IMG/VR virus record: IMGVR_UViG_3300020446_000029
Location: 1 to 37,962 of that record
Reading direction: 5' to 3' (one strand)
DNA: 37,962 nt
Source: a virus
Part shown: one piece after another, positions 1 through 27,500 of the stretch
Numbering within the stretch: the first letter of the stretch is position 1
How the letters are laid out: each line of letters opens with the position of its first letter
The notes under the pieces: model-generated
Seen by the model: only the letters and a program-made list of their open reading frames with translations
Told to the model about the DNA's origin: nothing
Databases searched by the model: none
Program-made: the position numbers and the translations under genes

Positions 1-158
1 ACTAATCCTTCATCAAGAGATACAATCTTAATATAGTTATTCGCAAAATAAACAGGATCATCTTTACACTTCAAGAACTCTTGAATGTTCTCTTTCGTGA
101 ACTCAATCGGTGTATTTGCTTTTTTTAGATTTGGATTACCAAGATAGACTTCACTCAT
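1..158 (-). CDS. 17: Terminase large subunit gp17, N-terminal fragment
   Basis: The first 52 codons of a gene that runs off the left edge. The protein begins MSEVYLGNPNLKK and continues with EFTKENIQEFLKCKDDPVYF and IVSLDEGL. I recognise this as the N-terminus of T4-like marine phage terminase large subunits, just ahead of the ATPase domain, which lies outside the window. In T4, gp17 is the ATP-driven packaging motor and headful nuclease that works at the portal with gp16. The ATG at 156-158 is preceded by an AAGGAAA Shine-Dalgarno-like stretch about 12 nt upstream. The gene follows the 136-residue gene with a 5-nt gap. In T4, 16 and 17 are adjacent; here three extra genes lie between them. 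No catalytic motif can be checked in this fragment. Confidence 0.85.
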   Translation of the reverse strand, partial: MSEVYLGNPNLKKANTPIEFTKENIQEFLKCKDDPVYFANNYIKIVSLDEGL

Positions 159-163
159 TTTTT

Positions 164-574
164 TTATTTGTTTCCTTTATCGAACATTCGTCTTAATAAC
201 CTTTCCTTTTCTCTCCTTCGATTATTTTTATTCTTAATTAACTCAACTTTTCTATCTATGAATTTTGCTTGAGCAGCATCAGCAGTTGGTGGATGAATAC
301 TTTTTCTTGAAATTTGCATACTCATATATTTACCTTTTAATGGAGATGGATCTTTAGGTGTATTGCCTTGTGCTAACCCTTTTGTCTTTCTTCCTTTTCT
401 CATTAAATGATCAAATCTTCTATCACCAGTTTTGAGACCAGATCTTTGATTTCTAAGAAACTCTTTTGTTTTCGCCATCAATTTAGGAGCGATTTTTTTA
501 CCTTTTTTACCGAGCATAATAGCAGCTTTGATTGCATCTGCTTTACCTTCTTGAAATTGTTGAAAAGTTTTCAT
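164..574 (-). CDS. Small basic hypothetical protein (136 aa)
   Basis: A 136-residue protein, very rich in Lys and Arg, with no signal peptide or membrane segment. It starts MKTFQQFQEG, an opening I associate with virion-associated proteins of marine T4-like phages, and ends in a dense basic helix (NRRREKERLLRRMF). A Gly/Lys-rich segment (MLGKKGKKIAPKL) sits near residues 20-32. Its ATG overlaps the stop of the upstream gene (ATGA at 573-576), so the two are probably translationally coupled. It lies immediately before gp17 in the late packaging block. The charge suggests nucleic-acid or scaffold contact, but that is inference. No known enzymatic motif is seen. Confidence 0.72.
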   Translation of the reverse strand: MKTFQQFQEGKADAIKAAIMLGKKGKKIAPKLMAKTKEFLRNQRSGLKTGDRRFDHLMRKGRKTKGLAQGNTPKDPSPLKGKYMSMQISRKSIHPPTADAAQAKFIDRKVELIKNKNNRRREKERLLRRMFDKGNK

Positions 575-1302
575 CAGCAGTTCCAGCGTCTAAGTGCCTT
601 GTTGATTCTTGAATCTGGATCTCTACTTGTCTTGGCAGAAGTAAGTTTCTTCTTCATACCTTTCATCCTTCTACAGAATGCTAATCTTCTCTTCGCAGAC
701 TTAGAACCTTTCTTTAATTTTTTAGGATCTTTTGTTACAGCAGTCTTTAATTTAGAACCAGGATTTTCACGACGATATGCTTTGACTGCTGCCTTACTCA
801 TACCATCAGTCTTATCTTTACGATTGACCTTTTGCCAATCTTCATCTAAATCTTCTCTCCAGTTAGATGGTTTAAGTGGTTCTGGTTTAATGATGTCTAC
901 TGCTTCAACTTCAGTGTACTTGATTTCATCAACATTCCAATCTTGAATTAAGAGTGCTTCATCAGATATATCTTCTTGCATTTTTCCAGTCTTTAAGAAT
1001 GTTTCACTATTTTTATCTAATTTTTTAGATGGATCTCCAAATACTTTTTTCATTTTGCGGTCAACTAACTTAGATATACCTAAACCTGCACCAGTCGCAC
1101 CGATTAATTTAGCAGCAGCTTTTAACTTACCTTCTTTCATTGCCAACTTTGTAGCAATTGCATATCTTACATTTTCATCACCATATCTTTTCTTCATATC
1201 TTTTTTGCCAATCGCATCAGCAATTTCATCACGTTTTTTGATTTGCTTCTTAGTCATTACACCTTCACCCATATAGGCAGTTCCATCACCACCAGTATAC
1301 AT
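574..1302 (-). CDS. DUF6321-like lysine-rich protein, possibly expressed by -1 frameshift
   Basis: A 242-codon frame counted from its first ATG. The C-terminal third contains DGMSKAAVKAYRRENPGSKL and SAKRRLAFCRRMKGM and ends RRWNC, which I recognise as a DUF6321-type domain common in marine phage virion-region proteins. A preceding segment, TKKQIKKRDEIADAIGKKDM, is helical and basic. The start is doubtful. No Shine-Dalgarno sequence precedes the ATG at 1300-1302. The next ATG (residue 16, MTKKQ) has only AAGG about 5 nt upstream. The frame is open for a further 40 codons upstream, back to a slippery heptamer in the preceding gene, so this may be the -1 frameshift extension of the 752-residue protein rather than an independent gene. 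Function is unknown. Confidence 0.72.
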   Translation of the reverse strand: MYTGGDGTAYMGEGVMTKKQIKKRDEIADAIGKKDMKKRYGDENVRYAIATKLAMKEGKLKAAAKLIGATGAGLGISKLVDRKMKKVFGDPSKKLDKNSETFLKTGKMQEDISDEALLIQDWNVDEIKYTEVEAVDIIKPEPLKPSNWREDLDEDWQKVNRKDKTDGMSKAAVKAYRRENPGSKLKTAVTKDPKKLKKGSKSAKRRLAFCRRMKGMKKKLTSAKTSRDPDSRINKALRRWNC

Positions 1303-1388
1303 ACGTTTAACTTTTTTGTCTATGGTTTTTACTACCTTTTGATTTACAACAGCAGGACCGTAATTAGTATTTTTTAATTTCTCATCTA

Positions 1389-1428
1389 AAGAAGAAGTAC
1401 TGATTACTTCTTCTTCTTGGACTTTTTT
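1389..1428 (-). promoter_or_regulatory. Candidate programmed -1 ribosomal frameshift signal
   Basis: Read on the minus strand, 1428-1422 is AAAAAAG, in phase A AAA AAG with the upstream 752-codon frame (GTA AAA AAG). This is the heptamer type known from E. coli dnaX and several insertion sequences. A 6-nt spacer (TCCAAG, 1421-1416) follows. Then comes a perfect 11-bp stem, AAGAAGAAGTA (1415-1405) with TACTTCTTCTT (1399-1389), and a 5-nt loop, ATCAG. The zero-frame stop TAA (1406-1404) spans the stem/loop junction. After a -1 shift the frame reads GTC CAA GAA GAA and stays open for 40 codons into the next coding region. The arrangement fits known -1 frameshift signals, but no expression evidence is available. 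A one-base error in the A6 run is the main alternative. Confidence 0.65.
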
Positions 1429-3662
1429 ACGCAGTTTGGATACCTCTTACCAAACATTGTTTTCATTCCCTTCTTTTCGTAACCTGCCCAACACTTCTCA
1501 TCAAGTTCTTGTCTCCAATCAGAGAACTCCTCTTTTCTAACTCTTGTAGGTTTCTTTACGGGTTTTGCAGGTTCAGCACCCTTCTCATCTTTAACTGGTG
1601 TCGAACCTTTATTCTTTTTCTTTTGGGCATCTCTTTCATGCTTTCTACCTAATTCATAACTACCAACAGCACCTACACCAGCTATTGTTGGTAGTTCTTT
1701 TTTAACTTTTTTACGTAAACCTTTTGCTATTGTTTTTCCTTTATCTGCTACTTTCTTTGCAGCTTCTGTTGCTTTATCACCTGCCTTACCTAAATTTTTA
1801 CCTAATTTTGATTTAGGTATAAATTCTTTAGGTATATCAGATCCTTTTCCTACACTTACTTTTGATAGATTTGGATTTCTCATTGCTCCCGCACTTGGTG
1901 GTAATCCTTTTACTACCTTTTTAGCTGGTGGTAATCCTTTGACTGCCTTTGCTGGTAATCCTTTGACTGCCTTTGCTGGTAATGCTTTAATTGCCTTTGC
2001 TGGTAATGCTTTAATTGCCTTTGCTGGTAATGCTTTAACTGCCTTACCAGCTACTTTTCGTCCACCAACTGCTTTTGCTACTGCTTTAATACCCATTTTA
2101 ACTAATTTTGCCTTTCCTTCTGTCAATCCATCATTATATTCTACTTCCTCAGAACTATTACCCCAGTTTGCAGCACCTACCTTACGACACTTAACTAATG
2201 CACCTGATGCATATGCACTTGGCCATACTGAATATCTAGACTTAACTTTATGATAGCAAGCATCTTTTTTACCACTACCTTTTCCTTTTCTATCTTTAAC
2301 TTCATTTAATTCCTCTTCATCCTCGTGTGGAATTGTATTTCCATCAACGTCTTTTTTGTGATGTTCTTGAATATCTTCTAAGAGAATATCTCCTACAACC
2401 ACACCATTTTCTGTAAACCAACCACGATTGACTTCGATTGCATATCTAATCTCACCATCAGGATATACAGGAATTGGATTCATTGGATCTAATTCTTTAA
2501 TACTTTCAATTATACCTTCTTCGTTTATAAACGCAATATCAAGAGGTATAAAAGTATTCTTCATATGAAAAGAATGATAATCAGTGTTCTCAAATATAAA
2601 GAGCATACCACGATCTTGTTCCAAACTTTCACGGAACATCATACCTAGTCTAAACTCTCCATCGCTTTGTGGAACCTCAAGTTGAAGTGGTAGTGAGATA
2701 AATTCTTCTTTCATTTTCTTTTTCTTTTTAGGTTTGTCAGTTGAAACATAAGTTGGTTTTGCAGCACCAGTTTTTGACTGCTGATTAGGATCTGCCTTTT
2801 TCTTTCTTCTCGCTGCAGATAATCTTTCTTTCTTACTCATACTTGCTCTCTTTGCAGAAGATACACACTTTGGAGTACCCTCACCTGGTTCATCGCTTGC
2901 ACAAGTTCCACCTGTGACTACGTTGACCCATCCACCTTTACCATCCTTGGATTTAGAACCCTTAAACCATTTATGAAGTGAACCTTCATTCATACTCTTA
3001 GGTTTCTTGCCTTTTTTCTTCATATCAATAGCAATTGCTGCTTGTTGTGCTGCGTTTGCTGCTTCTTTTACATCTTTACTATCAAGATAATCTGCAGCAG
3101 TATCTAAGTAATCAGATGCTTTAGTTATCTTTGATTGTACCCACGCTTTGAAGTTTTCTTTCTTACGTGAATGCTTTTCGATACGTTTAGATGCTCTACC
3201 TGCAGTCTTCAATTGACTACGAATCATTTCTGGTTCGTGATCACCATGCTTCTCTTCATTCATTTTCTTAGTCTTTTTCTTCATTGAATTAATAAACTTT
3301 CGATAAACTGCAGCTTCAGAAGTTTTACCCATCACTCTTGCTCTTTGTTCCATAGCAATTGCTGCTTGAATTTTATGAGCGTGTGATCTACTTGATTTCC
3401 TAATTTTTGCCACACTCGCTTTCGCTGTTGCGACATCCTTAAAACCAAGTCCATGAATAGTTCCTTTAGGATCTTCATCAGTATATAAATCAGAATGTTT
3501 TTTTGATTTTGCAGGTTGTCCTGCTTTTCTTGGGATACGAGGATTCGATCCCTCTGAAACTAAAAATCCATCTTCACGAACTTTATATCCATCAGGGATA
3601 GGTTTACACTTTTTATCAGTGTTACAATAGTATTGTCCCTTTTTACAGGAAGTCTTTCCCAT
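1404..3662 (-). CDS. Multi-domain Lys/Cys-rich phage protein with DUF192 and DUF5872-like modules
   Basis: A 752-residue mosaic between gp16 and gp17. In order: an N-terminal cysteine motif (CKKGQYYCNTDKKCK, residues about 6-20); a helical block with HSDLYTDEDPKGTIHGLGF and HAHKIQAAIAMEQRARVMGK (about 57-115); an Ala-rich helical block (about 165-215); a DUF5872-like block (EGSLHKWF, GGWVNVVTGGTCASDEPGEG, about 225-300); a DUF192-like beta domain (LGMMFRESLEQDRGMLFIFE to YAIEVNRGWF, about 324-425); a second cysteine block (KKDACYHKVKSRYSVWPSAY, about 463-510); tandem KALPAKAI-type repeats (about 538-577); and a C-terminal CWAGYEKKGMKTMFG block. These modules recur in marine T4-like phages; their function is unknown to me. 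The gene starts 7 nt after the gp16 stop. It ends at a candidate -1 frameshift site that could add 282 residues. Confidence 0.78.
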   Translation of the reverse strand: MGKTSCKKGQYYCNTDKKCKPIPDGYKVREDGFLVSEGSNPRIPRKAGQPAKSKKHSDLYTDEDPKGTIHGLGFKDVATAKASVAKIRKSSRSHAHKIQAAIAMEQRARVMGKTSEAAVYRKFINSMKKKTKKMNEEKHGDHEPEMIRSQLKTAGRASKRIEKHSRKKENFKAWVQSKITKASDYLDTAADYLDSKDVKEAANAAQQAAIAIDMKKKGKKPKSMNEGSLHKWFKGSKSKDGKGGWVNVVTGGTCASDEPGEGTPKCVSSAKRASMSKKERLSAARRKKKADPNQQSKTGAAKPTYVSTDKPKKKKKMKEEFISLPLQLEVPQSDGEFRLGMMFRESLEQDRGMLFIFENTDYHSFHMKNTFIPLDIAFINEEGIIESIKELDPMNPIPVYPDGEIRYAIEVNRGWFTENGVVVGDILLEDIQEHHKKDVDGNTIPHEDEEELNEVKDRKGKGSGKKDACYHKVKSRYSVWPSAYASGALVKCRKVGAANWGNSSEEVEYNDGLTEGKAKLVKMGIKAVAKAVGGRKVAGKAVKALPAKAIKALPAKAIKALPAKAVKGLPAKAVKGLPPAKKVVKGLPPSAGAMRNPNLSKVSVGKGSDIPKEFIPKSKLGKNLGKAGDKATEAAKKVADKGKTIAKGLRKKVKKELPTIAGVGAVGSYELGRKHERDAQKKKNKGSTPVKDEKGAEPAKPVKKPTRVRKEEFSDWRQELDEKCWAGYEKKGMKTMFGKRYPNCVKKSKKKK
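1930..2049 (-). repeat. Five in-frame 24-bp tandem repeats
   Basis: Five consecutive 24-bp units begin at 1930, 1954, 1978, 2002 and 2026, each starting GGTAAT on the plus strand. A sixth, degenerate unit lies just to the left (about 1903-1929). The unit length is a multiple of three, so copy-number change keeps the frame of the 752-residue protein. The units encode an Ala/Lys/Pro/Leu repeat alternating KALPAKAI and KGLPAKAV. Adjacent copies are almost identical, which points to recent expansion by slippage or recombination. The peptide looks like a flexible basic linker between the second cysteine block and the C-terminal modules. Confidence 0.85.
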
Positions 3663-3669: not shown

Positions 3670-4101
3670 CTATTCAGAGCTATTATTATTTAGCATTCCG
3701 TCTTTTAACATCTTTGATAGTTCACTTGTTGAACCTACAAATAATGCGTTGTTTGTGACATTATTTTGTGTTTTTGGTTTATCCTCATCTATCTCTTTTA
3801 TTTTTTTATGCAAATCTGCTAACTTATCAGTTGTGTCAGCAACAGATTTAATTAATTGTCCTGCTACTTCATACGCCCTTGGACTTGCTGTCTCACCAGC
3901 AACTTCCATAATACCGTTAATTGCCTCTTGCCCCTTTTCAATCAAAGAGTAGAGATTACCACGAGTATAATCGTAATCCTTACTAACATCATCAGTGAGT
4001 TTCTGAATGTTACTTTTTGCTTTATTTTCTTTAGTAATTGCATTTACTTCAACAGGGTCTGTATTAAAAGTATCATTAAGTGAATCGTATGAGTCTTTCA
4101 T
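3670..4101 (-). CDS. 16: Terminase small subunit gp16
   Basis: A 143-residue protein, close to the 164 residues of T4 gp16. The core at about residues 45-108 contains YTRGNLYSLIEKGQEAINGI, SPRAYEVAGQLIKSVADTTD and a heptad-like KLADLHKKIKEID helix. This is the pattern I expect for the T4-type small terminase (DNA recognition and regulation of gp17). The acidic N-terminus and the Asn/Ser-rich C-terminus are probably flexible. The gene lies directly downstream of gp15, as in T4. It is unusual in not being followed at once by gp17: three other coding frames intervene. The ATG at 4099-4101 begins MKDSYDSLND. Confidence 0.85.
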   Translation of the reverse strand: MKDSYDSLNDTFNTDPVEVNAITKENKAKSNIQKLTDDVSKDYDYTRGNLYSLIEKGQEAINGIMEVAGETASPRAYEVAGQLIKSVADTTDKLADLHKKIKEIDEDKPKTQNNVTNNALFVGSTSELSKMLKDGMLNNNSSE

Positions 4102-9314: not shown

Positions 9315-9518
9315 CTATGACGTTATCTTTGATGCAAGTTCTTTTAACATAGATTTTAGAGTTTCAATCTCATCTTTCATAGCGTCAATCTCTGCTTTTT
9401 TAATACTATTTCTCTTTTTATCCTTAAGATAACTTTGATAAGATGCATTATCACAATTAATGATAGCACCTGTGCTTTCATCACGAAACAGATTTTTGTG
9501 TCCCTCTACTGGTATCAT
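9315..9518 (-). CDS. Conserved small phage protein (67 aa)
   Basis: A 67-residue protein starting MIPVEGHKNLFRDESTGAII, then a charged helix (KKAEIDAMKDEIETLKSMLK) with hydrophobic residues in heptad spacing. I recognise the VEGHxNLxRDExTGAI opening followed by a coiled coil as a small family widespread in marine T4-like phages, encoded near the baseplate and fibre genes. The function is not established. Its start overlaps the last base of the large DUF4815 gene (9518), so it is probably co-translated. It is followed by the late promoter at 9303-9310. Confidence 0.77.
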   Translation of the reverse strand: MIPVEGHKNLFRDESTGAIINCDNASYQSYLKDKKRNSIKKAEIDAMKDEIETLKSMLKELASKITS

Positions 9519-12500
9519 TATGCTAATGCGATTGCTCTAAAGTCCTTTAAGCTTATTGGAACAGATTCGTTAGTCGAAGTCATAACGATCTTAATCTTAA
9601 ATCCATTAAATTCTTCTAAATCATCTATTGAGAATTGATATTCAGAAAATTCACCTATGCTATCTGCAGCAACAAAAGCATCAGGTCTACCATCATTATT
9701 TGCAACATCAATGACATCATTTCCAAAACCATCACCTGTTGTATCATTTAGATTTTTGTATCCAGGAAATGGTCTGTATGTTTGATCCACTCCACTAGAA
9801 TCAAAACTGAATAGACGATAAAATACTCTAAAATCTGCTTCTGGTTGTCTGCTTGCTGCAACGAGTACCTTAAGAGATGTTGCAGGATTTTTCAATGTTA
9901 CAAGTTTAGATATGAATATAGAACCGTGAGGATCATCTCTTAATGATCTAGGTCTTTCATCTGTTGCATAATTTTCTGCACCAACTGGATTGTTAATTTT
10001 ATTTCTACCAAGAATAAATGTTGCGTTCTTAACATCTAAAACAGGTGATAAATTGGTGTCAGTAGATGACATATCAACATTTAGAGTTAGTGATTTATTT
10101 TTTGGTAGATTGGTTAATCTCACACTTTCGTTTTTAACAGATGCAACTAGTCTTGGAGTTGGAAGAAATGTTGTCTCATTTAGAGTTACAGGTTCAAAAC
10201 CTTGATCTATGAATGAAATTTCACCACCTCCTGAACTTGTACCACTGACTGTTCTTATACTAGCGTTAACATTTGTTGACTTACCAGGTGTGATAGCATT
10301 AAATTGAGGGATAATTGAACTGAACTGATGGTTTTGTGATATCTGAACATTTTTTCCACCAAATGCTTTATCATTTGTAAAACAAATTAGAGAATCACCT
10401 GATCTATTAGATGCTAAGTTTGCAACATCAACTTTTAGGAAATAACTATCAAGAGTATCATCAAACGTTGAAATATCAAACGAGGTGTTAATACCTGTTA
10501 AGGATACACCACCTGCTTCGTAAGTTTGTATATCCGAACCAATATCATGTGATACAGGTGTTGTGCCAAATTGACCTCTGACAATTGTTAGTTTTCCACT
10601 ACCAACTGTGTATGATACAATTTCATTTCCAATTAAAGCTTCACCAATAGATGTTGTAATACCATTATAGCTAGCAAATGGTGATGTATCGCCAATTTCA
10701 ACAGTCGTTGTATCTGGGTCTAATGCTGAAGTAGTTTTTATCTTCATAGTATCTGGTCTAACATTTTTAATTTCAACTTTATTATTTCCACCGTGATGAG
10801 CGTGATTGAATTGAGTAACTTCAATTACATCACCTGTATTCTTCTCTCCATTTACTGTTGAAAAGGTAACTTGTGATTGAGCAATTACTGATTTTGTAGT
10901 GTTATTACTTGAATATTTTACAAGTTTACGATTATTTGTAAATTGAGATCCTTGAACATCAGTTAAGAATATAGAATCAAAGGTAGAAGAAATTGCTGCA
11001 ACAGTGAACTTTAATCCAGCACCTGTAGTTACCTGAGAACTATTATTATCAACAGTCAAAATATCACCAACTTGATAACTAGAACCTACATTATTAATTA
11101 ATACAGCGGTAACTACTTCATTTGTGACTGTAACATTTACTGTGCATCCAGTTCCACTTCCAGTTAAAGCAACTGTAGGAACACCTGTTGTGCTACTGAA
11201 TGTATATCCCTTTCCACCAGTTACAACTTCACCAGCACCAACTATAGATCCTCCTTGACCTTCAATAATACCTGTTATTGAAGCATCTTCTGGCACTGTA
11301 TTACCAAGAACATCTGCTTGTGATACCTTTTGACCAATTCCCAAATTAGCATCTGTACAATCAGCACCAGTTATATCAACCTTTAATTTTCTTGGTAGTG
11401 AACGAATTGGATTATCAGATAATAATTGAGTATTTAAGTTACCTGGTGTAATTGGTGTATTATAGAAAGTAGCAGTTCCAGAAGTTACAAACGATGCTTT
11501 ACGTAACTTGAAAGTTAAATCTTCATATTGACTTGGAGTCCAAATAGTACCATTTTGTGATTTAAATAAACTTCCACCAATATATTGTTTTGATACAACT
11601 ACATCTTCAACATCAGGAAGCACTGTTGATCTAACTGTTTTTTCACCCATACGAGCAACCCACATTTCATATAAGTCTGATGCAGGTGATAAAAATACGA
11701 TTGCATATTCTTTACCTGGTTCCAGATAAACAGGAGATGGGAAACTAATTGTAGTAGGAATTGATGCGTCATCAGATATATTAACTTGATTTGGATTTAA
11801 CGCTATCTGTGTATAATTCTGAACAAGGAAATCGGTTGGTGTACCAAGTTCCATATGTCTAAGTTCCACGAATACTTTAGCATTTGGATCCTTAGAAGCA
11901 AAATAGACATCAAATGATGTTAAGAATGCACCTGTCTCATCAACTCTAAATGATTGAGCTAATGGATCTCTATGAGGTGCTTGAATAAATTCAGTATCTA
12001 CTTTTGTATTGACATTAATCCTCTCAGTTATTTCATTACGTCTCTGAGGTGGTGCTGCAGGGTTTCTAATCTGTACATTATTGTTTGTTTGTGTGATGAT
12101 AACCCCAGTGCCTGTAAAGACTCCTGAAGCGTCACTAGCAAGTGCTGTAGCACCTGGTAATTGTATAGAACCCTCTGTCGCAGCAGTAACTCTAAAAGTT
12201 TTTGCTCCAGATCTAAAAATAACTGGTGGTTTAGGTTCTGCGTTAGCATTTCTGAAGAAGAATGATCCAATCAAATCACCCCAATTATCAGATACTAAGT
12301 CGATACTTGTTATTTTTGCAACCGCACCACTAGTTTCACCAATTATTGTTGCACCTTTAACAGTATATCCATAGTATTGCTCTTCATTTGCCAATGCAGT
12401 TACATCAATATTAAGTAATCTCGATGTTGCAGAGTATGTTGATGATGGTGCTGGTCTTGTTGAATCATAAGGATCAACCGAATAATCCTCAACTAAAACT

Positions 12501-15500
12501 GAGGGTGAACCTAATCCTGCTCCAACATCGGGTCTTGTAGTATCACCAAACTTATGATTTGGTCTTTGAATTCTAACATAACCTATTTGTGGATCATCAC
12601 CTAAACTGACTAACTCAATTCTTGCATTTTCAAAGATAGTAAATGAACCAGAAACCATTTCGATTTCAATCAATTTTGGAATAATATCGGGAGATTGGCT
12701 ATCAAGATAATGATAGTGTCTTGTAGAAGGTTTCAGACCATTTGCTAAAAAGGATACGTTTCGAGATCTCATAAAAGGATCCACGTTACTATCAACTTTT
12801 GTGCTTTCTACATAATCTCTTTCTTCTGCTGCACCTACCAAAGTATTTGTAAATTGCCTTTCAACTCTTATTCTTTGAGTGGTGGTTGTTATATTATCAT
12901 ATCTTATTGTAGGATAATTATCAGTAACTACTGTATTTTTCTGTACATCTTCACCTACAACTGTGTTTGAGATAACATTTGCTTGCTCAACCCAAGTATT
13001 ACCTGTTGATTCAACTCTAAAATTATCCAAATAAATGGTTCTTGTCCAGTTATCTGTTGGTGGATCTAAAAGAATACCACCTGCAAATGTAATGACATTA
13101 AATGGGTTGACGTTTTCTACTCTCGTTGCTTGTGGTTGATTTATCCAATCTATTTCAGTATAGTCGAGAGTTATTAAATCACCTGTTTTTCTACAATTTG
13201 TGTCGAGTAATTGTAAATTAGAATTTAAATCAGCAGCTCCAAGATCAATATCTGGATTTAATGCGAGTTCTGCTCTCATAGACCAGAAATCAACTGCACT
13301 TATTAATTCTCTAGTTTCTACATTAACATCACATCTAGAACCTCCATCACGACTGAAATCAATAAAACTTCTGTTTTTAAAGTTGTTAACTACAAAACCT
13401 GTCTTAAATCTGTTGAGTCCATCAGCATCTTTAACTTCAAGAGTTTTCGTATCTAACTCTAAAGCAGATAATGATGTGAATTCTTCTAAATTAGATATTC
13501 TCTTTTCTAATGCACCAATATCTCTCATCGTAAAACGACGATTATCAAACATCCTGATTCTAGGTTCTTTGACAACATCATACAAATATGGAGGTAACGT
13601 GATTTGAGCAACTTCCATTGCATTACCAACTTCTGTAGGAGGTGCAGGATCTTCAGATGACACTCCTTTAATTAATTTTACTTGTTCATATTCATCAATT
13701 ACAAGTTTATCAATACGAGGAAGATAGAAACCATATCCAACAATAGAACTTTCGTTAGGTGTAATTACAAAGGGATTTGATTCTTCAAATTCACGACTAG
13801 AAAATGCAAAGGGTGATGCATTAGTTGCAGTAAATGCTTTAACTCTTGGTCTTAAATCTAAAATATCAGTTGCTCTATCGCCAGTTATGTACGGTATGTC
13901 TCTTGAATACCTATCAGAGGTAAATGAATTTACTGAAAATAAATCACCTTTGTTTCCTGTTGGCACTACATATTGATCAAATATAATTAACAATCTTTTT
14001 GCAGGAATACCAGATCTTTCTTTCCGTACAATTCTCGAATAATCTGATATTTGTTTGGTGTGTCCTTTGTTAAGTAAGTAATTATCAGTTCTATCAATGT
14101 AATTTCCATTTATAATTTGTTGTATATTTGCAGTTATAGATGACTCCTTAAAAGTAACCGATTCATTTTCAACAAATCTATTTGCATTTAAATAAACAAA
14201 ACCTACAGCATTAGGACTTGTTTCAATAATTTGTCCGATTGCTCTACTTTCTTCTCCAACAATTTTTTCACCTATTATCACTGATGTATCTAAACCTAAA
14301 CCAGATACAAATACTAAATTGTCTAATACTGGTTTTGATAAGTTTTTGGACTCATAAATTGCAATAACTTTATTAACATCAGGGACGTTGAGAGAAATTT
14401 CTTTATCCTCAACTCTTAAACCATAAGCATCACTCTGAGTTAAATTACCATTTGTTGATACACCAACTGTTCTTGTTACTTCAAGTTGTTTACTTCTGAC
14501 ATAATTTTTTGACTTACTAGTAACTCCTACCTTTTTAAGAGTTACATTAAGTGTGCAAGCAGTGCTAGTATTCGTTAATCCTGAAAATGTTATATCATTT
14601 CCATTATTAGTTATTGTAACTTTATCAGATGATAGAGGTTCAACAGAACCATCATTATAAGTTAATGTATATTTTTCAGCATCAAATGGTTCAAAGAATA
14701 CACTTGTAATTCCTGCATTTACATTAAAAGCATCACTTGATGTGAGTGATAATGTACCTGAACCACTAGTAGATTTACCTGTTATTTGAGTGCTAATTAC
14801 TAAATTTGAATCAGAAGAGTTAAGATTTGCTATATTTCTTCTGGGTAATTTAGTATATAATCCAGCATCATCAATATTTGATATCAAAGGAACTCTAACT
14901 CTGAAAACACCAGTTGTTGAACCAGCTCCAATAATACCACCATTATTAACACCAGTTACATTTGGGGTGGTGTCTAAAGTTAATGTATTTCCATTAGGAC
15001 TAATATCAATAATTCTATTGAATACTGGATCTGTAAAATTACCAGCAGAGTATGAAATTACTGCATCTGTTGTAATTCCAACTTTTCCTGCAAAATTACG
15101 TCCTGGTATAGTAGCAGTATTAGAACTACCACCACCTAATACATTTAATTGATCTGCTGGAGAAAAACCAGGCAATACACGATCATATAAAACTGAATCT
15201 GCTACAAAATTAGATACTAAACCACTACCACTGATTGTAGAAATATCTTGAAAAATAGATTTAATATCAAACACATTATATGCGTTGATTTTTGTGATAG
15301 ATGATTTACTATCGGTTGTTTTTTCGTTGTATATTAATTTTTCTCCAACAATAAATGTGCCTGTAGTTGAAGATAAATTTATTTCATCTGCAGCAGAAGT
15401 ACCTGAAACCTCTGCCAAATATCCTATAGCACCACTTGATAATCCTCTAACTCTAGTGCCTTTGGGTTGAGATGATACTATATTTGTTATTTTAAGGGTT

Positions 15501-16927
15501 GTATATGTTTGAATATCATACAAATGTAAATCAAACTCTGTTGATGCATCGCTATACGCAGAATCTGTCACTCCAAATGAATATACTCTTGCTTGTCCTA
15601 CTTTAATTCCAGTTCCTGCTGTTGTACTTGCACCTCTTCTTTGATTGTAAAGTTCAACAGTATTTGTATCAGTTCCACCTATATTGATAAATGGTGCTCC
15701 AAATACATTATTTACTCTAAGTAAACTACCCATACTGAATGGGATAGATGCAGAGGGAACATCTTTAACATCTCTTGGTTTATCAATATCTAAAACAGTT
15801 GTGCCTTTTAGGTAAACATCAAATCCCTTGACATAAGCTTTACCTGGTGACAGTTTGACACACATTTTATCCTCTGAAGGTTTATTACCTTCATCGGTGA
15901 GTTGATTTTCAGTATATAATCCACCTGTTTCAATTTCATCATTTAGTGAATCTTGTAAGTTAACACGAAATGGTTCTACAGCATAGTTACCAGATTCATC
16001 AAATGTTCTTTTTGCAAAATATTTTTTAATCTCAGAATATACTGATGTATCTTGTATTTTTTTAGGTTCACCTTGTCTTATTCGATATAACTCTACAAAA
16101 CTAGTATCATTATAATCATCTAATGATTTCTTGGTTAATTTAACTGTAATCTTAAAACGATCTGCACCAGGTGCAGCAAAATTAGTAAATCCTTTCGCAT
16201 TGTCATATAGTGAAGAATCATCATTAGCGTTTACTACTTCTTCAATAATATCTAAACCAATCCTGTATGATGGTTGAGCAACGTACGGATCTAATATAAT
16301 TAAAGATGTTGGAACATCTACAAATGCACCACGTAAAAAATAAACTCCTTCATTGATACCAAATGCAGAACCAGTTGCTGAAGCACTCTCTAAAGATAGT
16401 GTTAATACTGTTTCTCCTATATTTAAAGTTGTATTACCATAAGTTAAACTCTCTTCAAGTATTAAAACCTCACCATCAGGAAATGCTACACTTTCACTAC
16501 TAGTGCCAGATTCATTATATTTTACAAATATTGTTGGTTCAACAACTCCCTCATTTGGAGGTAGAACATAATTTTTTATCGTTGCTATAATACCAGAACT
16601 TTGACCTCTAACTCTCGTACCTTTACCATTATTATTAGAAATTAAATTATCTAAGTAAATAGAAACATCAATGCCAAGATGAGACTGATTTATTTTACAA
16701 GAAAAATAAGATGGATCATACTCTATGCCACCAGGTATGACCATTGAACCTTCTTTGAAGATGTGTTTTCCAAAAGATTCAACTTGGTTTTGTAATATTG
16801 ATTGTAAACCAGTTAATTCTCTTGCTTGGACTGGTTTGCCAGGCTTAAAGAGAATTTTGTAAAAGTTTTTCGCCTTATCAAAGTCGTCATAATAAGGACT
16901 TATATTTAGATTGGTCTTTTGTGGCAT
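9518..16927 (-). CDS. Giant DUF4815 virion structural protein (2469 aa)
   Basis: It begins MPQKTNLNISPYYDDFDKAK and continues FYKILFKPGKPVQARELTGL, which I recognise as a DUF4815 protein of T4-like marine phages. The N-terminal region contains two GTRVRGxSSGxI motifs. Around residues 1130-1165 is a short coiled coil (IGALEKRISNLEEFTSLSAL). Near residue 1900 is a Gly-Tyr beta unit (GGKGYTFSSTTG). The rest is beta-rich, with a conserved-looking C-terminus ending SLKDFRAIALA. It lies directly downstream of gp8, where T4 has gp9 and gp10 (gp10 has 602 residues), so a baseplate-to-fibre connecting role is plausible. It is much larger than any T4 wedge protein. There are no catalytic motifs. Confidence 0.82.
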   Translation of the reverse strand: MPQKTNLNISPYYDDFDKAKNFYKILFKPGKPVQARELTGLQSILQNQVESFGKHIFKEGSMVIPGGIEYDPSYFSCKINQSHLGIDVSIYLDNLISNNNGKGTRVRGQSSGIIATIKNYVLPPNEGVVEPTIFVKYNESGTSSESVAFPDGEVLILEESLTYGNTTLNIGETVLTLSLESASATGSAFGINEGVYFLRGAFVDVPTSLIILDPYVAQPSYRIGLDIIEEVVNANDDSSLYDNAKGFTNFAAPGADRFKITVKLTKKSLDDYNDTSFVELYRIRQGEPKKIQDTSVYSEIKKYFAKRTFDESGNYAVEPFRVNLQDSLNDEIETGGLYTENQLTDEGNKPSEDKMCVKLSPGKAYVKGFDVYLKGTTVLDIDKPRDVKDVPSASIPFSMGSLLRVNNVFGAPFINIGGTDTNTVELYNQRRGASTTAGTGIKVGQARVYSFGVTDSAYSDASTEFDLHLYDIQTYTTLKITNIVSSQPKGTRVRGLSSGAIGYLAEVSGTSAADEINLSSTTGTFIVGEKLIYNEKTTDSKSSITKINAYNVFDIKSIFQDISTISGSGLVSNFVADSVLYDRVLPGFSPADQLNVLGGGSSNTATIPGRNFAGKVGITTDAVISYSAGNFTDPVFNRIIDISPNGNTLTLDTTPNVTGVNNGGIIGAGSTTGVFRVRVPLISNIDDAGLYTKLPRRNIANLNSSDSNLVISTQITGKSTSGSGTLSLTSSDAFNVNAGITSVFFEPFDAEKYTLTYNDGSVEPLSSDKVTITNNGNDITFSGLTNTSTACTLNVTLKKVGVTSKSKNYVRSKQLEVTRTVGVSTNGNLTQSDAYGLRVEDKEISLNVPDVNKVIAIYESKNLSKPVLDNLVFVSGLGLDTSVIIGEKIVGEESRAIGQIIETSPNAVGFVYLNANRFVENESVTFKESSITANIQQIINGNYIDRTDNYLLNKGHTKQISDYSRIVRKERSGIPAKRLLIIFDQYVVPTGNKGDLFSVNSFTSDRYSRDIPYITGDRATDILDLRPRVKAFTATNASPFAFSSREFEESNPFVITPNESSIVGYGFYLPRIDKLVIDEYEQVKLIKGVSSEDPAPPTEVGNAMEVAQITLPPYLYDVVKEPRIRMFDNRRFTMRDIGALEKRISNLEEFTSLSALELDTKTLEVKDADGLNRFKTGFVVNNFKNRSFIDFSRDGGSRCDVNVETRELISAVDFWSMRAELALNPDIDLGAADLNSNLQLLDTNCRKTGDLITLDYTEIDWINQPQATRVENVNPFNVITFAGGILLDPPTDNWTRTIYLDNFRVESTGNTWVEQANVISNTVVGEDVQKNTVVTDNYPTIRYDNITTTTQRIRVERQFTNTLVGAAEERDYVESTKVDSNVDPFMRSRNVSFLANGLKPSTRHYHYLDSQSPDIIPKLIEIEMVSGSFTIFENARIELVSLGDDPQIGYVRIQRPNHKFGDTTRPDVGAGLGSPSVLVEDYSVDPYDSTRPAPSSTYSATSRLLNIDVTALANEEQYYGYTVKGATIIGETSGAVAKITSIDLVSDNWGDLIGSFFFRNANAEPKPPVIFRSGAKTFRVTAATEGSIQLPGATALASDASGVFTGTGVIITQTNNNVQIRNPAAPPQRRNEITERINVNTKVDTEFIQAPHRDPLAQSFRVDETGAFLTSFDVYFASKDPNAKVFVELRHMELGTPTDFLVQNYTQIALNPNQVNISDDASIPTTISFPSPVYLEPGKEYAIVFLSPASDLYEMWVARMGEKTVRSTVLPDVEDVVVSKQYIGGSLFKSQNGTIWTPSQYEDLTFKLRKASFVTSGTATFYNTPITPGNLNTQLLSDNPIRSLPRKLKVDITGADCTDANLGIGQKVSQADVLGNTVPEDASITGIIEGQGGSIVGAGEVVTGGKGYTFSSTTGVPTVALTGSGTGCTVNVTVTNEVVTAVLINNVGSSYQVGDILTVDNNSSQVTTGAGLKFTVAAISSTFDSIFLTDVQGSQFTNNRKLVKYSSNNTTKSVIAQSQVTFSTVNGEKNTGDVIEVTQFNHAHHGGNNKVEIKNVRPDTMKIKTTSALDPDTTTVEIGDTSPFASYNGITTSIGEALIGNEIVSYTVGSGKLTIVRGQFGTTPVSHDIGSDIQTYEAGGVSLTGINTSFDISTFDDTLDSYFLKVDVANLASNRSGDSLICFTNDKAFGGKNVQISQNHQFSSIIPQFNAITPGKSTNVNASIRTVSGTSSGGGEISFIDQGFEPVTLNETTFLPTPRLVASVKNESVRLTNLPKNKSLTLNVDMSSTDTNLSPVLDVKNATFILGRNKINNPVGAENYATDERPRSLRDDPHGSIFISKLVTLKNPATSLKVLVAASRQPEADFRVFYRLFSFDSSGVDQTYRPFPGYKNLNDTTGDGFGNDVIDVANNDGRPDAFVAADSIGEFSEYQFSIDDLEEFNGFKIKIVMTSTNESVPISLKDFRAIALA

Positions 16928-18570: not shown

Positions 18571-21500
18571 TCAACTTAAAACTGCTCTGATAGAACCGCT
18601 ATTTCTATGTCCTCTTTCTCCAAGATTGTCATAGCTCTTTCTTTGTATTGTTGGGAAGGTTGAAAGTCCAGAATCTATGGTTAAACCAGTAACTCCTATT
18701 GAAATAGGGTTTGATGAGCGTTTAACATCTACACCACTACTTGCACCATATAATCTACCCCAGTTTATAGTACCTAAACTTGTGGTTAATCCAATATTAG
18801 TAGGATCATAGAAACCTTCTTCATCAATACTGTCAACCCAACTATCTGTATTTGAATGTATTTTGCAAGTAATGGTTCCCTTTGCTCCACCTACAGAGTA
18901 ATCAACAGCATTAACAACATAAACATTATCAAGGAAAGTTGTTCCAATACCAACTACGTTATCATCATCCTGAATTACTGATGTTAAACCATTTCCTACC
19001 TTTGTATCTTTAATATAAACAGGATATCCAACATTTAGTATGTTTGCTACAGCATTTGTAAGTCCACCGTTACTATTTTTAGTTACAGCATGGAAATCAA
19101 ACCTTAGTCCACCAGTTACTTTCGTAATACCAGTAATGATACCTGTATATCCCTCAAAATTAGATATTCCTGTAATTTTTTCTGTATCAAATTTTGGTTC
19201 TTCTATAATAACTTGTGGTGGATTACTTTGTTGATCATATCCAAGTCCAGGATTTATTATTGTTATATCGGTCACTACACCATTAGTCACTGTAGCAGCA
19301 GCGGTAGCAGTAGTACCAATACCAACATATTTTTCAACACCAGATGGTGCTTCAATACCTATATCAACTACTCCAGTATATCCTGAACCACCACTTATTA
19401 TATTGATTGATGAAATAGTACCTCCAGCACCTATCGTAGCGGTTGCCTCTGCGACTTCGCCAATCTCACCAGATGTTATCAATGCATCTACTGAATCTGG
19501 AAGTAATGAGTTTCCATATTTACCTTCATAGAAGAATGCTTGAGCATCATCAACAAAAATACTATTACTTGCTTGAACACCTATTCCTGAACTCTCTGAA
19601 AGATCACCAATTATTTTTGATGTAGGATAAAGTTGAGGTTCAAGTATAGATCTTGATTTAGGAACTAATCTACCATTTATCTTTAAGTCATTCTTTTGCT
19701 TAGTCCATCTAATTGGTTTTTCATTTGTTTCATCAATACCCAATCCACTGTAAATATCAGTATCGACCAGATCAGTGTTAAGAATTTCTTTTACGATTCT
19801 TTCACTAGTTTGTGATGTTGATAATCCTGCTACCTTTTCACTCTTAAACACACGAACAGCATCACCAATCTTTATTGTTTCTGATACGTTTTCAATTTGT
19901 ACATCAATACCATCAATACCTTTATAGAAGTAAATATCCACATTATCATGATCATTAAGACCTGGTTGAGATTCACCACTAGGTGGTTCTGTAAATATGA
20001 ACGTTGTACCTCCTTGGAATTGATAAGCTTCACCAGGTTTCTGCAATACTCCATTTACAAAAATAAGTAATACTGCATCTAAATCGATTAATGCGGAACG
20101 AGGATCAGTTAATACTTTCTCAAAACTGAGTAATTCACCATTAAAGAATAATGGGAATCTTGTTCTAGTACCATCTTGAAGTATTTTAATACTATCAATC
20201 GCATCAATTTCACCAAATTGCCAAGCAGCAAATTTATCATTAAATATTTCAAGGACTTCTAATTCAAATTCTTGTATCGGTGCAGATAAATGTGCAGCAG
20301 TTACAAGACCTACAGGTTTGAATTTATCACCTTTTTTGAATGAATAACCTGATCTAGATATCTCGAAGTCTTTAATTCCAAATAAGGTAGAACCAATTCC
20401 AACGGATGTTGTCGCTGCACTCACACCAACGTTTAGAAGTAGATTTGCTCCTGTTTCTGTTGTTTCTCCAATACCTAATCTTGATATACCTACAACTTCT
20501 AGATTTTCATAAATTGGTTCTGGAATAATTATTTCAGGATTAACATAACTTGTTCCAGCAGATACGATATTAAATGCAAGAGTTCCTCCTACACCTACAG
20601 TTGCTTCTACAACAGCACCTGTACCACCGCCACCACCTTGACCTACAAATAGAGTAACTGTATCACTTGTTGTTGCAATAATCGCAGTTTGTATACCAGC
20701 AATAGGATCTGAATTAGGGAAACTTGTTTTAGATACTGAACGTGGATATGGATGGTCTGAGAAGAAATTATCCTTTGAACATTTAAATACTAAACCACCA
20801 GTATCAATACCAACTGTATCGGATGTAGTTAAATTATGATTAGGAATTGTAAGAAGAAGAGTACCTGTATGTGAAGTATAAATTGCATCAATCGCAGTAT
20901 ATGCTGCTCCATCAAAAGTTCCTTTTCTGATTGAACCTATACCAGCACTTACAAATTTGTGCTCGTATGCAATATCAGTAACACCAATCGAAACAGTACC
21001 ACCTCGATAACCAGAACCGAATGTTAGATCTTCATAGAATTCGTATGCATGACCACCACCTTGATACGTATGTGGTATTGTGCTGGCACCTGCTATTACC
21101 TCAAAACTTCTTTCAGAAACTATACCAACAACAAATAATGGTCTCTCGTGGTCTTGGAAAATAGTTGTTGTAACTCCAACATATCCACCACCACCAATTG
21201 TTTTTACTGAGTCAGCAGCAGCAGAAACAAATGTGTGAACATATTGATCACCTGGTGCCGATGCACCAACATTAACTCTAAATGTATTTACAGTTCTATT
21301 AGTTATTGTTAGATATTGACCAGCAGCGGGGTCTGTAGCACGAGGATAGCAATGAGTGGTATTATTACTATCTTTATCACAGGTAAAGCATATTGAACCT
21401 GTATCAAGAATAACAGCATCACCCACAACCAATCCATGATTTGGAATAGTTAATACTAATACTCCAGTAGCAGGATTGTATGTTGCATTTGTTGGAGTTC

Positions 21501-24500
21501 CTACCACTGTTTTAGGACATACAAATTCTAATCCCTTTAATTTGACTGAAGTAGGTCTATCTAATCCGAATCCGTGAACATCATTTGTTGTAACTGTAAT
21601 GATTCCACTTTGATTGTCATATACAGCGGTCTGAATACCTAGATTAAATCCAGATGATGTTCCAATACCAACAATTCCTGTCAATTCACCAGATGCATTT
21701 TTCTCAGGTCTTACCTTTGCACCAACTAATGGAGCGTATCCTAAACCTTCAGTTGAACCAAGAGAAACGATTAAACCACCTCTAGGTATCTGGTTTTGGT
21801 TAATGTCATCAGGAGATACGATAAATTGACCATTTTCTGATGTAATTCCAGTAAATCTAATTGATGATATTCCTGAAGTGGTATCTGCTAGTATTGCATA
21901 ATTATTACCAGAACTATTAGAAGTAAATGGTTTTTGGTATACCCCATTAATAAAGACAACTCCATTTCCAACTTCAATACCAGCTGAAGTATTTGCACCA
22001 CCAACTTTTAAGGTATAATTTGTTGTGAGACCTGTAAAGTTATCTGATATATCATCAAATAACATATTGGTTGTATAATCCTGTCTTGTAAATGTTCTTC
22101 CACTGAAATCAGCCTTTACAAATGGTAATTCAGTATTAGTTTTTCTAGAGCGAGTATTTCCTTTTGGAGGATCAATGAAATGAACTGTACTGTCTATTAT
22201 GTTAAATGATCCTCTATGAACTCTTACAATATCACCATTATTATGAGGTGTAGCACCAATTCCTAAAGCACCCCTCTGAACTCTAACTGTTGGAACTGTT
22301 GATAATCCTTCAGATATGTTTAACTGGTCATCTATTTTTCCACTTCCATCGGATGTACTTGAAAATCCGACTTCAATAATCTTCATAAATTCTTCGTTTA
22401 TCTTCAATACATCAGATGTAGCTATTGAACCAATACCACTTAACGAGAATTGTGTAGTTCCTGCTCCAATGTTAACAGACAATGTATGTGTCAATGAAGT
22501 AAAGTTAACAGGTTGTTGTACAACACCATCTAAACCTATAATTGTTTTAGATAATTTTTTGGTCATATTCAACTTATGAATATTACCAGAACCAACACCC
22601 GTGACAGTAATTGCAATACCTGATGCTATATCTTCTCTTGTTGGGAATAACTGGAATTGATCTTCAGTAAGTACTTTGGCAAAAACAGTAGATGGTAAAA
22701 TATCTGTTGTTATACCTGCATTGTTAACTGTCGAACCAATTGATATTGGAGTAGCTGCTACTCCTATGAAGGATGATTCGGGAGTATAAATCAATTCTTC
22801 ATTTGTATTAAAGAAATGATTAGATATAGTAAAAATACCTGTTGATTTTTCAAGTCCTACACCATCAGGATTGAATGTCTTTGTATAGATTGGAGTTCCT
22901 TGATATTTTAAGTCAAATTGTGTTTTATTTGCTCTTGCTCCTTCCAATCCATCATATGTTGCTAATAATACATCTTGTTCAACATTACCATACCTTAAAG
23001 TTGCTGGAATATTGCTGAAATCGGAGGATGTATAGAATACTTGGTTAAATGCCTGAACTTTAATTTCATCTGTAAACTCTGAATCAGGAACGAATTTAAG
23101 ATTAATATCATCTCCAGATATTACTGAAGTAAATGAACCGATACCAGAAGTGGAACCTAATGAGACATATGGATACTGAACAACTAAAACATCTTCAGCA
23201 TCCCTAATTGCTGTAACTTGATGTATTGCAGAAGTTTGTCCAGTTGATACTTTTATAAGAGATTTAATTGAACTATCAAGTGATTTATTGATAGTTGCAT
23301 ATGTGATATCTGAACCTGTTGCCTGATTAAATGTAGATTCTAATCTTGCACTTCTCTCTGCTTCAGGGGGTTGACCCTCAGATAAAAATCTATGTGTTCC
23401 TATTCCAGCAGTCGTTGTTCCCAAACCAACAATACTAGACTTAGAGTCTAAAATAGTTGACCTATTATTCTCAATCTGTAATTTAACTAAATTATTTTCT
23501 ACTCTAGCAGTAATTATTCCAACACTATTGGTTGTAATTCCTATAACATCGTCAGAATAAACCTGAGATAAAGTTGTGTTTGTGCCATCAAAATCAAGAA
23601 TTACTTCGTTATAGTTAATGTCTTTTGTTACAGAATCTTGAACAAAAATATTTGCTTGTAATCCATTAAATGTATCCTTATCAAATTCTACGATTGTAGT
23701 TGTATTAAAACCGATTGCAGCAGATGCAATACCCACATTTGCACTTATTAAATCAATACTTCCTATTACAGTTGTGCTAATTCCAGCAATATCAGTATCA
23801 TAGAATGTTTTTAATATTTTGATGTCATGATCTTTTATAAACTTCTCAACTGGATTGAATAATAGATTATTAGTAGATGCAGATTCTGTTTCAAAATCAC
23901 CAAGTTTAAGATTGCCATCAATGCTATCTAATCCAACTCCAGTTGAATCACTTGTTTTTTCAAGTAAAAATATTTGATCTTCTTTAGTTAATACAACTAT
24001 TTCACTTAATTGTGTGTCAAAAGTATCAGGATCAATTACTTGAATTAGATAATTAACAACTTTACCATTTATTTCGTCAATTATACTTGTATTAGCAGCA
24101 AAACCAACACTTGAAAATTCTCCACTTACATCATCGTGAATTAATACTCTATTAGAAATACACTTATTAAAATTAGTTAATTTTTTCTCTGAGAATATAA
24201 GAGACTTTGTTTTATTACCAAGACTATTATAATCTAAAACATAATCAAAATTATTGATTGCATCAACTCTGTTATCATCACTAACAACATCTAAAATGAG
24301 AGTTGATATTGATTTATCATTTTCTGTGTTAACACCAACTCTTACTTTTCTCTGTACAAAAGTATCAGCAAAATTTTTCAATCCTGCAGGGTGAACTATA
24401 CTGTTAACACTATTTGAGAACTTATCCCAAGTTATTGGACTCTTAACAGAATATGATAGGTTTTGATAATAATCATTATCAGGTGTAACTTGAATATCTT

Positions 24501-27500
24501 CGTTTAATTTTCCAGTATCATCTAACCAACCATATTCTTGACGATTAGAAAAATCAATCTCAAATCTACCTAAATTTGGTTTGAGTTGGACGATTTCAGC
24601 AGAAACACCTGTTGTTTGACCAGTAATTCTATCGCCTTTATTAACTGCATCTAAACCATCTAATTTTATAAAATCATCTCTTGTTTCAACAATCTTTAAA
24701 TCTGTTTTTTCACCATTTAATATTATTGGTTCATTCTGCTGGAAAACTCCTCTTTCTTGAACTGGAATTAATTCAGGGTAATTCTTTTTATTGACTATCG
24801 TTGCATAACCAGATTGGAATGTTTTGGCAATACCAGGATTTGTAGTTACACCAGCAACGCTAAATTTTAAAACTGTATTACTTCCAGGTATGTATTCTAT
24901 AACCTTAAAGAAAGAAAAATTATGATTTTCTGAATTAAATCCTTCACCTAATACTTCACCAACTACATTTCCACCTTGTACAGTAAGACCTCCAGCTTCA
25001 CCAACTCTTTGAATTCCTTCAACATATATGTCATCTCCAACTCCAAATGGTTGAGGATCAACAAATCCATTAAATGGTGTTTGTAAGAAACAAGTAACTA
25101 ATCCACCAGAACTAGTTTGCATTGAATTAATACCAATTCCATTTGAGTTATTAGTTGCAAATATTTGATGCTGAACTGAGTCGAGTCCATTTAATGGTGC
25201 AACTAAGTCAACAGCTGCTATGGTTTGATTAGGAACATCTGCAGATAATGATGCTGTATCAACAATTTCATTTGAGACTGGATTAAAAAGTACTAAATTA
25301 GGAGGTGTTGTATAATCAGATCCACCACTAACTATATCGATAGTAGTTACTGTATCTAAGTTGTCAACATTTAAGATAGATGGTATAAAAACTTCTGGTT
25401 GTAAAGTTTTATCTGCAGAATACTCATACCCTATATCAAGCACTCTAACATTTTCTATTTTACCTATATTGTTTGATATAGCAACTAAATTAGCATTCAC
25501 ACCCTCTGTGGATTTGACTTCTTTAAATAAAGGTAATTTTTTATAGTTAAATCCTTTAGATAGAATTTTTAATTTTTTAATTCCACCTTTTACATTCTTT
25601 GATTTTGTTGAATACTCAATTTTTTCACAATCATTTTCATTATAATTTAAAAATTCTGGAAGTCTTGGTGAGAAATTGAATGTTTCAGATGTAACACCAG
25701 ATATTTTGTATTCACCATTATAAACACTGTCTAAGAAAATAATTTGTGAGTAATTCTGCACTTCATTATCTGCAGTGCTTATATAACCACCTTTAGTAAT
25801 ACCATAATATAGCACAGTTGGTGTTGATGTAGTAGGTTGTAAAGTTAATGAGGCATCTACAATACCGCCTGTTTCTGTTCCAATACCAACTGTACCTGCT
25901 GTTCCAACATTAAATAAACTTGAATCTTGAGAACTATAAAACTCATTTTCACCATTACCATAAAAAATCTTAAAGTCAAATCCTGCGAGAGTTGTTGTAG
26001 ATAATCCAAATTTAACTTTTGAATTTTTATATACCTTGATTTGTGGGTTTATAGGTGCGATGCTTTGCTTACTTCCACCACTATTATTTGTTAGTTCAAT
26101 TAATCTTATTGGATTTGCTGATAAATCATTAAATGTCTCTGCTAATTGGAAAAATCGACTATTAACTTTATAAACAAAATATGAACCTGTACCTAAACCA
26201 GCATTACCATCATAAAATACTTTATCACCAGTGTTAAAACCGTGATTTTCAATGTTTATTCTATTAGTCTCTACATTTGTATTTGTAAATTCTATTGGAT
26301 TGATCAATAATTTCTCATATTCAGAATTATAATTTACTTCAATAGGAGTTGTAGTTCCTATTCCAACAGTATGATTAGGAACAACATTTATGGATACAAT
26401 ATCATTATTCTGCAGATCATGAGTGGTTGTACCAGCAGTAGCAACATTAACAGTTAAAGTACTAACAATTTTATCAATATCACCTGTAACTTGTTCAAAT
26501 TGTGATGATAAATTGTAGAGATGTGTGTTAATACCTGTAACAGAACTTGCATTTGACTTAAAATATAATCCTTCGCTGGTACTACCGATACCTACTGTCG
26601 AAAGACCAATATAGTTTTCACTTTTCTTGATAACAAATAAATCTATTGAAGTATCATTTGAGTCAAATGGTATTGAAAAATTGCCATTTGTGTCATTCGG
26701 GTCATCAGTAGTTGCAACATTTATTTGTCTATTAGAAACTGCAGGAACATTAAGTTTTACTTTTTGTCCAGTGATAAACGGATGATTTGGTAGATAAATT
26801 TGTCTGTTAGGTATTGATATTGATTTTACAGTTTCACCGATTACGTAATTTGATGATATTGCCTGACCATTAGTACCTACTCCTATTGATTGTGGAGCGT
26901 TGAAATATATTACATCATTTGCTTGTGAATCAAATTTTCTGGTTTTAACAGGTATAGATACTTGATTATTCAATAAATCAACATTAGAACCAAATGTATG
27001 TGCGATTCCAACATTTCTGAAAACACGAATTATCTTTTGCTGTTTATATACATTTAATACTGATGCAATTTCATCATTTGGAGTATTACCAGAACCAATC
27101 CTTATAGAATTTCCAATTGATACGTTGTCTGGTAATTTATTGACAAAAATATCTTCAATACCAAGATTTCCAACAGTCACAGCACTCATTGATTTGCCCA
27201 ATGAAACACGAGAAGTAGAAACACCCACAGAGAATGAATCTGTTAAATTTTGGATTGATGTACTTAAACCTGAAACAAAAACATAATCCTGATCATTTAA
27301 TTCAATATATGTTGATATACCTGCTTTAACTGAACCATCTTCTGACCAAGTGAATACTAAATCCTCAAATCTATCCAATTTAGTGTTTATACTAGAAACT
27401 CCATAACCAACTATTTCGCTTACCTCTGCACTAAATCCTGTGCCATTTGTATTAGTATTGTCAAAAGAAGTAAGATCACCTACTCTATAATCTGTTCCTG

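Follow-up and report, generated by a model that had tools for sequence, protein, structure and literature searches.

A candidate dnaX-type −1 frameshift site between gp16 and gp17 of T4-like cyanophages, with alleles of opposite polarity among close relatives

Results

Two reading frames and a set of candidate frameshift signals between gp16 and gp17

The sequence of the gene located between gp16 and gp17 of a T4-like cyanophage predicts a −1 programmed ribosomal frameshift of the dnaX type, a reading to which we assign a probability of about 0.88. The DNA analysed, referred to below as the window, is a 37,962-base IMG/VR record. Family matches place gp13, gp14, gp15, gp16 and the start of gp17 around the frameshift site, and the window was therefore assigned to a T4-like virus. 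Since the gp15 of the window is closest to that of Prochlorococcus phages P-SSM2 and P-SSM5 (74.6%), and photosystem reaction-centre genes are present on the 235-kb contig of a relative, L051 (none was found on the three shorter records searched), the virus very probably infects a marine cyanobacterium. The coordinates of the features are collected in Table 1.

Table 1. Features of the window at and around the candidate frameshift site
Feature	Coordinates	Strand	Evidence or remark
gp16, terminase small subunit	3670..4101	minus	context, family matches
Zero-frame ORF, short product, 752 aa, C-terminus NCVKKSKKKK then stop	1404..3662	minus	PHROG 727 and 3477; DUF192
DUF192 domain, residues 327-426	2385..2684	minus	E 8.8e-27
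Shine-Dalgarno-like AAGAGG, 14 nt 5' of heptamer	1443..1448	minus	31/31 class A contigs
Slippery heptamer A AAA AAG	1422..1428	minus	in phase; 31/31 class A contigs
Hairpin 5' arm	1405..1415	minus	fold
Hairpin 3' arm (loop 1404-1400)	1389..1399	minus	fold; comparable stem in 31/31 class A
Zero-frame stop TAA, within hairpin	1404..1406	minus	TAA in 31/31 class A
−1-frame extension, 282 codons + stop, VQEEEV...RRWNC	574..1422	minus	translation
Conserved start-less part of −1 frame, 40 codons	1303..1422	minus	no start codon; homologous in-frame peptide in L239
DUF6321 domain, long product only	583..819	minus	E 2.7e-12
gp17, terminase large subunit, N-terminus, truncated at window end	1..158	minus	context

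A preliminary description of the window had reported the heptamer in zero-frame phase, a 6-nt spacer, an 11-bp stem with a 5-nt loop, and a −1 frame open for 40 codons into the DUF6321 frame. All of these were confirmed: the heptamer occupies positions 1428-1422 of the minus strand and the spacer 1421-1416, the stem consists of 11 Watson-Crick pairs with one G-U pair below them, and the −1 frame continues without a stop for 282 codons, beginning at 1422 and terminating at 574. The product sizes of 1029 and 752 residues are also arithmetically correct (747 + 282 = 1029). The Shine-Dalgarno (SD)-like AAGAGG at 1448-1443 had been overlooked. The statement that the DUF6321 frame has no SD-supported start is correct as regards its first ATG, at 1302. 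A later ATG (1257, minus strand), which is located 55 −1-frame codons in, is an exception, with AAGG upstream. The latter is a possible secondary internal start of DUF6321; its position is not conserved among relatives. ATG, GTG and TTG are absent from the −1 frame of the window over a stretch that begins at the previous stop in this frame, located 8 codons ahead of the slip, and includes the 40 codons after it. A scan of the whole window for stop-to-stop ORFs of at least 100 codons that end no more than 60 nt from an A/T-type heptamer, with a −1 frame open for at least 40 codons, revealed one other match, which lies in the same region but on the other strand.

Because an SD, A AAA AAG and a stem together constitute the dnaX signal set, the ribosomal slip was read as dnaX-type. 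According to the proposed mechanism, the anti-Shine-Dalgarno of a ribosome positioned on A AAA AAG would be paired with AAGAGG, 14 nt upstream, while the hairpin ahead would block the front of the ribosome. A fraction of ribosomes would slip back one base and read 282 more codons into DUF6321, producing a protein of ca. 1029 aa, while the remainder would read five further codons (SKKKK), halt at TAA and produce 752 aa. The two forms, one short and the other extended by a DUF6321 tail, would be made in a fixed proportion. Relatives would arrive at the same mix by the opposite polarity, with frame 0 encoding the long form and the −1 frame stopping after one codon. We infer both that slipping occurs and that its ratio is selected.

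Several other ORFs of the window may be mentioned. An ORF of 136 aa (164-574, minus strand), the beginning of which overlaps with the DUF6321-frame stop, had no family match in profile searches; its first residues, MKTFQQFQEG, resemble the N-terminal capsid-targeting sequence of T4 internal head proteins. Two giant ORFs of 4433 and 2469 aa (18571-31872 and 9518-16927, minus strand) lie amid baseplate-type genes (gp6-like, gp8-like), and the smaller one contains DUF4815.

The same split in other contigs

A scan for the zero-frame tail, with a pattern that required CVKKSKKKK and TRR after it and left AGG and the choice of TGC, GTA, AAA and AAG free, returned 29 contigs, which together with L051 and the window form class A (31 contigs). 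In all 31, the zero-frame stop is TAA and the −1 frame begins with V[QK]EEEV. The same 29 contigs were recovered with a second pattern, which required the −1 peptide but fixed neither the whole heptamer nor the zero-frame stop; no class A variant with a different heptamer was seen by it. The exact junction pattern had no matches in bacterial and archaeal genome contigs. The 30 contigs besides the window span 22 IMG data sets, and all 30 readable 210-nt junctions are distinct; the contigs are related, so that counts are not independent.

The codons AAG AGG TAY CCA AAC TGC GTA AAA AAG contain a single variable synonymous place in class A (TAT in 29 contigs, TAC in 2). Synonymous diversity over these nine codons is 0.013, versus 0.226 over 15 degenerate codons upstream, and AAGAGG and the heptamer are invariant. 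The 14-nt spacing between them, found in 31/31 contigs, falls within the range of 9-14 nt that PMC5009743 gives for −1 stimulation by an SD.

The −1 frame extends to RRWNC in 24 of the 31 contigs, runs off the contig end in six, and is broken in one, L107 (contig 3300046171_000216; 33 codons, apparently an indel). The L107 break may be a sequence error, since L051, which comes from the same data set, has frame-broken photosystem genes. In L051 (contig G001, 92691-94718), two PF00124 genes each match as two pieces that switch frame near profile position 200, and one of the genes has an internal TAG. These breaks may be errors or may be something noteworthy.

Selection on the −1 frame and alternative explanations

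The ratio pN/pS was determined for the stretch between the zero-frame stop and the first start codon, using ungapped class A pairs at least 70% identical over at least 20 codons. The values for the −1, 0 and +1 frames were 0.35, 0.97 and 4.5, respectively (45 pairs), and 0.35, 0.81 and 4.7 when 12 pairs having no contig in common were used. These values support the translation of the −1 frame as protein, before any start codon.

The result bears on the possibility that two separate proteins are made, i.e., that the 752-aa gene simply stops at TAA and the DUF6321 part begins by internal or coupled downstream initiation. The ATG at 1257 fits such a scheme, as do SD-like stretches found at 16 of 153 starts within 100 −1-frame codons of the 31 contigs (one of them in the window) and the occurrence of DUF6321 in a short ORF of 127 stop-free codons in L010. 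Initiation at a start codon would leave the protein-level selection ahead of it unaccounted for, and would deprive the invariant SD and heptamer of a function. In addition, a relative, L239, has this stretch in the interior of a single ORF (see below). The preliminary description had regarded relatives without the heptamer and with a clear Shine-Dalgarno start for DUF6321 as evidence against frameshifting; the first 26 −1-frame codons are free of start codons in all 31 class A contigs, and in the 30 that have one further on, the first start is located 27 to 78 codons in, at differing places. We therefore consider two separate proteins improbable, although weak internal initiation is possible, because of the 16 starts with an SD-like stretch.

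Slightly less probable still is slippage of RNA polymerase on the A run, whereby part of the mRNA would gain a base and would contain the long form as one continuous reading frame. A homopolymer is indeed present, and Thermus thermophilus dnaX uses this mechanism (PMC5009743), but the run contains only six A, while PMC3711429 lists A runs with n over 7, and polymerase slippage does not need an SD at 14 nt. Gene decay, i.e., loss of the long form and use of the truncated protein alone, could be illustrated by L107, whose −1 frame is disrupted; yet this frame is intact in 30 of 31 contigs as far as they extend, which, together with a pN/pS of 0.35, largely refutes decay and makes it very unlikely. 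A sequencing or assembly indel, suggested by the single ORF of named relatives (which the preliminary description would have taken as a sign of a one-base error), is the least probable explanation and was rejected, since 30 further contigs from 22 data sets share the split with the same −1 peptide start and invariant signal codons, and the nearest in-frame relatives keep the SD, the heptamer and the hairpin with frames swapped.

Junctions with the same signals and swapped frames

Pattern scans revealed at least 18 distinct junctions, referred to as class B, in which AAGAGG and A AAA AAG are followed by ACTAA. Since the class is defined by the heptamer, AGG and ACTAA, only the hairpin and the other codons provide independent support. 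Frame 0 continues to the usual DUF6321 C-terminus in 11 class B junctions, runs off the contig in six, and leads to an unusual C-terminus and then a stop in one (L231); a −1 shift meets TAA after one residue. Among junctions with the heptamer followed by ACN, ACT was found in 18 of 18 with AAGAGG versus two of seven without it.

The class B locus L239 is 94% identical to the window at the DNA level over 120 nt beginning at the 3' arm of the hairpin, and 84% identical over 102 nt up to the heptamer. Its frame 0 encodes ..TSSLNEKLKNTNYGPAVVNQKLVKTVDKKVKRMSTGGDG, which is nearly the same as the −1-frame peptide of the window. A similar pair is formed by L088 (class A) and L247 (class B), which are 97.5% identical from the 3' arm on and 85% identical upstream. 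The interval from the heptamer to the 3' arm is 23 nt in these class A and 27 nt in these class B junctions; the two lengths differ by one modulo three. The gp16 proteins of class B loci L001, L239 and L247 are 92-95% identical to gp16 of the window. Matches to gp15, gp16 or gp17 are present on the stretch that carries the junction in 28/31 class A, 17/18 class B and 31/36 class C loci (class C is described below).

In a tree built from the DNA of the final 88 codons (24 class A, 11 class B and four class N sequences, the last being junctions without the heptamer), classes A and B are interleaved, with at least four changes between them. A single class A clade was rejected (AU p 0.004) in this tree, many inner branches of which are weak (8/35 starred). 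The interleaving could also have been caused by recombination between the junction and the C-terminus. As recombination could mimic a change of polarity, we limit our claim to both alleles circulating on closely related C-termini.

Association of AGG with the heptamer and a further class of junctions

A codon-neutral scan brought to hand loci with the junction peptide MFGKRYPNCVKK, among which, in the matches listed, there are 115 other distinct junctions. AGG serves as the R codon in 19 of these 115 listed junctions: 12 have AGG and the heptamer, seven AGG alone, two the heptamer alone, and 94 neither. Thus, AGG goes with the heptamer among the matches listed (Fisher p 6.5e-10, ignoring kinship). 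In named phages, the SD and heptamer pair is absent and there is one in-frame ORF in 13 of 13 junctions read, which come from 13 phages chosen among the search hits.

Class C comprises 36 junctions with AAGAGG and A6G, another continuation and an open frame 0. A −1 stop occurs within 7 codons in 34 of the 35 readable ones. For classes B and C together, such a stop was found in 52 of 53 junctions, compared with 69 of 111 without the SD and heptamer pair (p 9e-8); these counts exclude two junctions that were too short to read and those in which frame 0 stops within 15 codons. Class C loci, which include L120, L156, L171 and L263, are mostly without a nearby stable hairpin. Class C may also frameshift, and is possibly an older or weaker state of the same site. 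We treat it as a lead only, in which the SD is weak evidence, because 27 of the 36 junctions were collected after the search pattern demanded AAGAGG (the other nine preceded this demand).

Stability and covariation of the hairpin

The hairpin of the window has a free energy of −14.0 kcal/mol (z −3.3), and two of 200 dinucleotide shuffles were equally good. When synonymous codons were resampled (500 times), 5% of sequences were as stable for the window, and 0 to 18% across the 31 contigs. The mean z against such resampling is only −1.75, and part of the stability therefore comes with the peptide. A hairpin of −9.5 kcal/mol or lower is present in 31/31 class A, 15/16 foldable class B, 15/122 class N and 4/34 class C junctions, and in none of eight junctions that have the heptamer without AGG.

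The preliminary description had proposed that heptamer, spacer and stem be compared in related phages for covariation with an open −1 frame. The heptamer, SD and stem are kept throughout class A, and the open −1 frame in 30 of its 31 contigs as far as they extend, but covariation of the stem is limited to one pair in class B, which changes from U-A to C-G with a U-G intermediate in 12 of 18 class B rows, those sharing register. No compensatory changes were found in the class A stem, and the hairpin is otherwise mostly invariant.

The gene family and its likely product

The DUF6321-containing gene matches PHROG 727 and 3477, which cover both parts of the gene of the window. The gene preceding gp17 is a single ORF in phages Bellamy, SynMITS9220M01, S-SM2 and P-TIM68, and in S-SM2 it carries the label T4-GC 119. 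Family features of T4-GC 119/DUF6321 polyproteins found in the window are the DUF6321 C-terminus, the PHROG 727 modules and the position before gp17; PMC3037559 describes the gp16-gp17 interval as a variable hot spot. An AlphaFold model of DUF6321 (94 aa) is all helical, with a mean pLDDT of 81 in one of five models and 64-68 in the others. A Foldseek search against PDB returned a single match for this fold (E 8.4), which provided no functional lead.

A homologue in Synechococcus phage S-SCSM1 is annotated as "virion protein", and the S-SCSM1 paper reports virion proteins identified by mass spectrometry (PMC9602691). The product is probably a virion-associated protein of the T4-GC 119 type. 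On the strength of this annotation and of the mass-spectrometry paper, a virion or head-completion protein made in two C-terminal forms appears likely.

Discussion

Close relatives of the window appear to use the same site in reverse, an indication that the production of both forms is the important point. An extension of this idea, which we offer tentatively and rate somewhat below an even chance, is that the locus holds one frameshift cassette whose polarity is evolutionarily interchangeable among relatives with gp16 more than 90% identical, with selection acting on a ca. 1:1 ratio of two forms of a virion protein. An interchange would be near neutral only if the shift occurred at ca. 50%, whence the selection on a roughly 1:1 ratio. 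If this is true, the coexistence of both polarities would be explained, because at such an efficiency a flipped polarity barely alters the ratio. The prediction is that efficiency is ca. 50%, and that the short-to-long ratio is similar for both alleles.

If the frameshift reading is correct, marine T4-like viruses possess a further conserved recoding site, and the gene that contains it is one which plain ORF calling divides into two. Alleles of unlike polarity with common cis signals would constitute a natural experiment on frameshifting, and the existence of two C-terminal forms would be a lead to the role of the DUF6321 family.

According to the preliminary description, a frameshift is not known to have been described at the gp16-gp17 locus. 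Searches of the open-licence literature revealed no account of frameshifting for this gene or for T4-like cyanophages in general, no report of interchangeable polarity at the locus, and no paper on DUF6321. The main text of the PRFect paper (PMC10885494) contains none of the words cyanophage, Synechococcus and Prochlorococcus. The mechanism itself is already known.

Comparison with known systems

The DUF6321 polyproteins of the T4-GC 119 type (PHROG 727 and 3477; Bellamy, SynMITS9220M01, S-SM2 and P-TIM68) have the same modules, the C-terminal DUF6321 and the place before gp17, but in the 13 named-phage junctions they are encoded without the split and its signal pair. In tail assembly chaperones G/GT, a −1 shift produces a short and a C-terminally extended phage protein, and the outcome proposed here is alike. 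The gene and its place, between gp16 and gp17, are different, and no match to a tail-chaperone family was obtained in profile searches of the window.

The E. coli dnaX gene (tau/gamma) resembles the locus in A AAA AAG, the upstream SD and the downstream stem-loop. There, −1-shifted ribosomes stop one codon later and shifting is near 50% (PMC5009743). Class B shares the E. coli polarity, while in the window, in a phage gene between gp16 and gp17, the shift would yield the long form, i.e., the polarity is reversed. Such a reversal of dnaX polarity between bacteria is already known (PMC5009743 and PMC3711429). In two-ORF dnaX genes (a GeneTack cluster, e.g., Chlorobium), the longer product requires recoding, a reversed polarity similar to that of the window; these genes contain runs of 7 to 10 A, for which polymerase slippage was suggested (PMC3711429). 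The locus described here differs from them in that both polarities share one set of SD, A6G and hairpin among close relatives.
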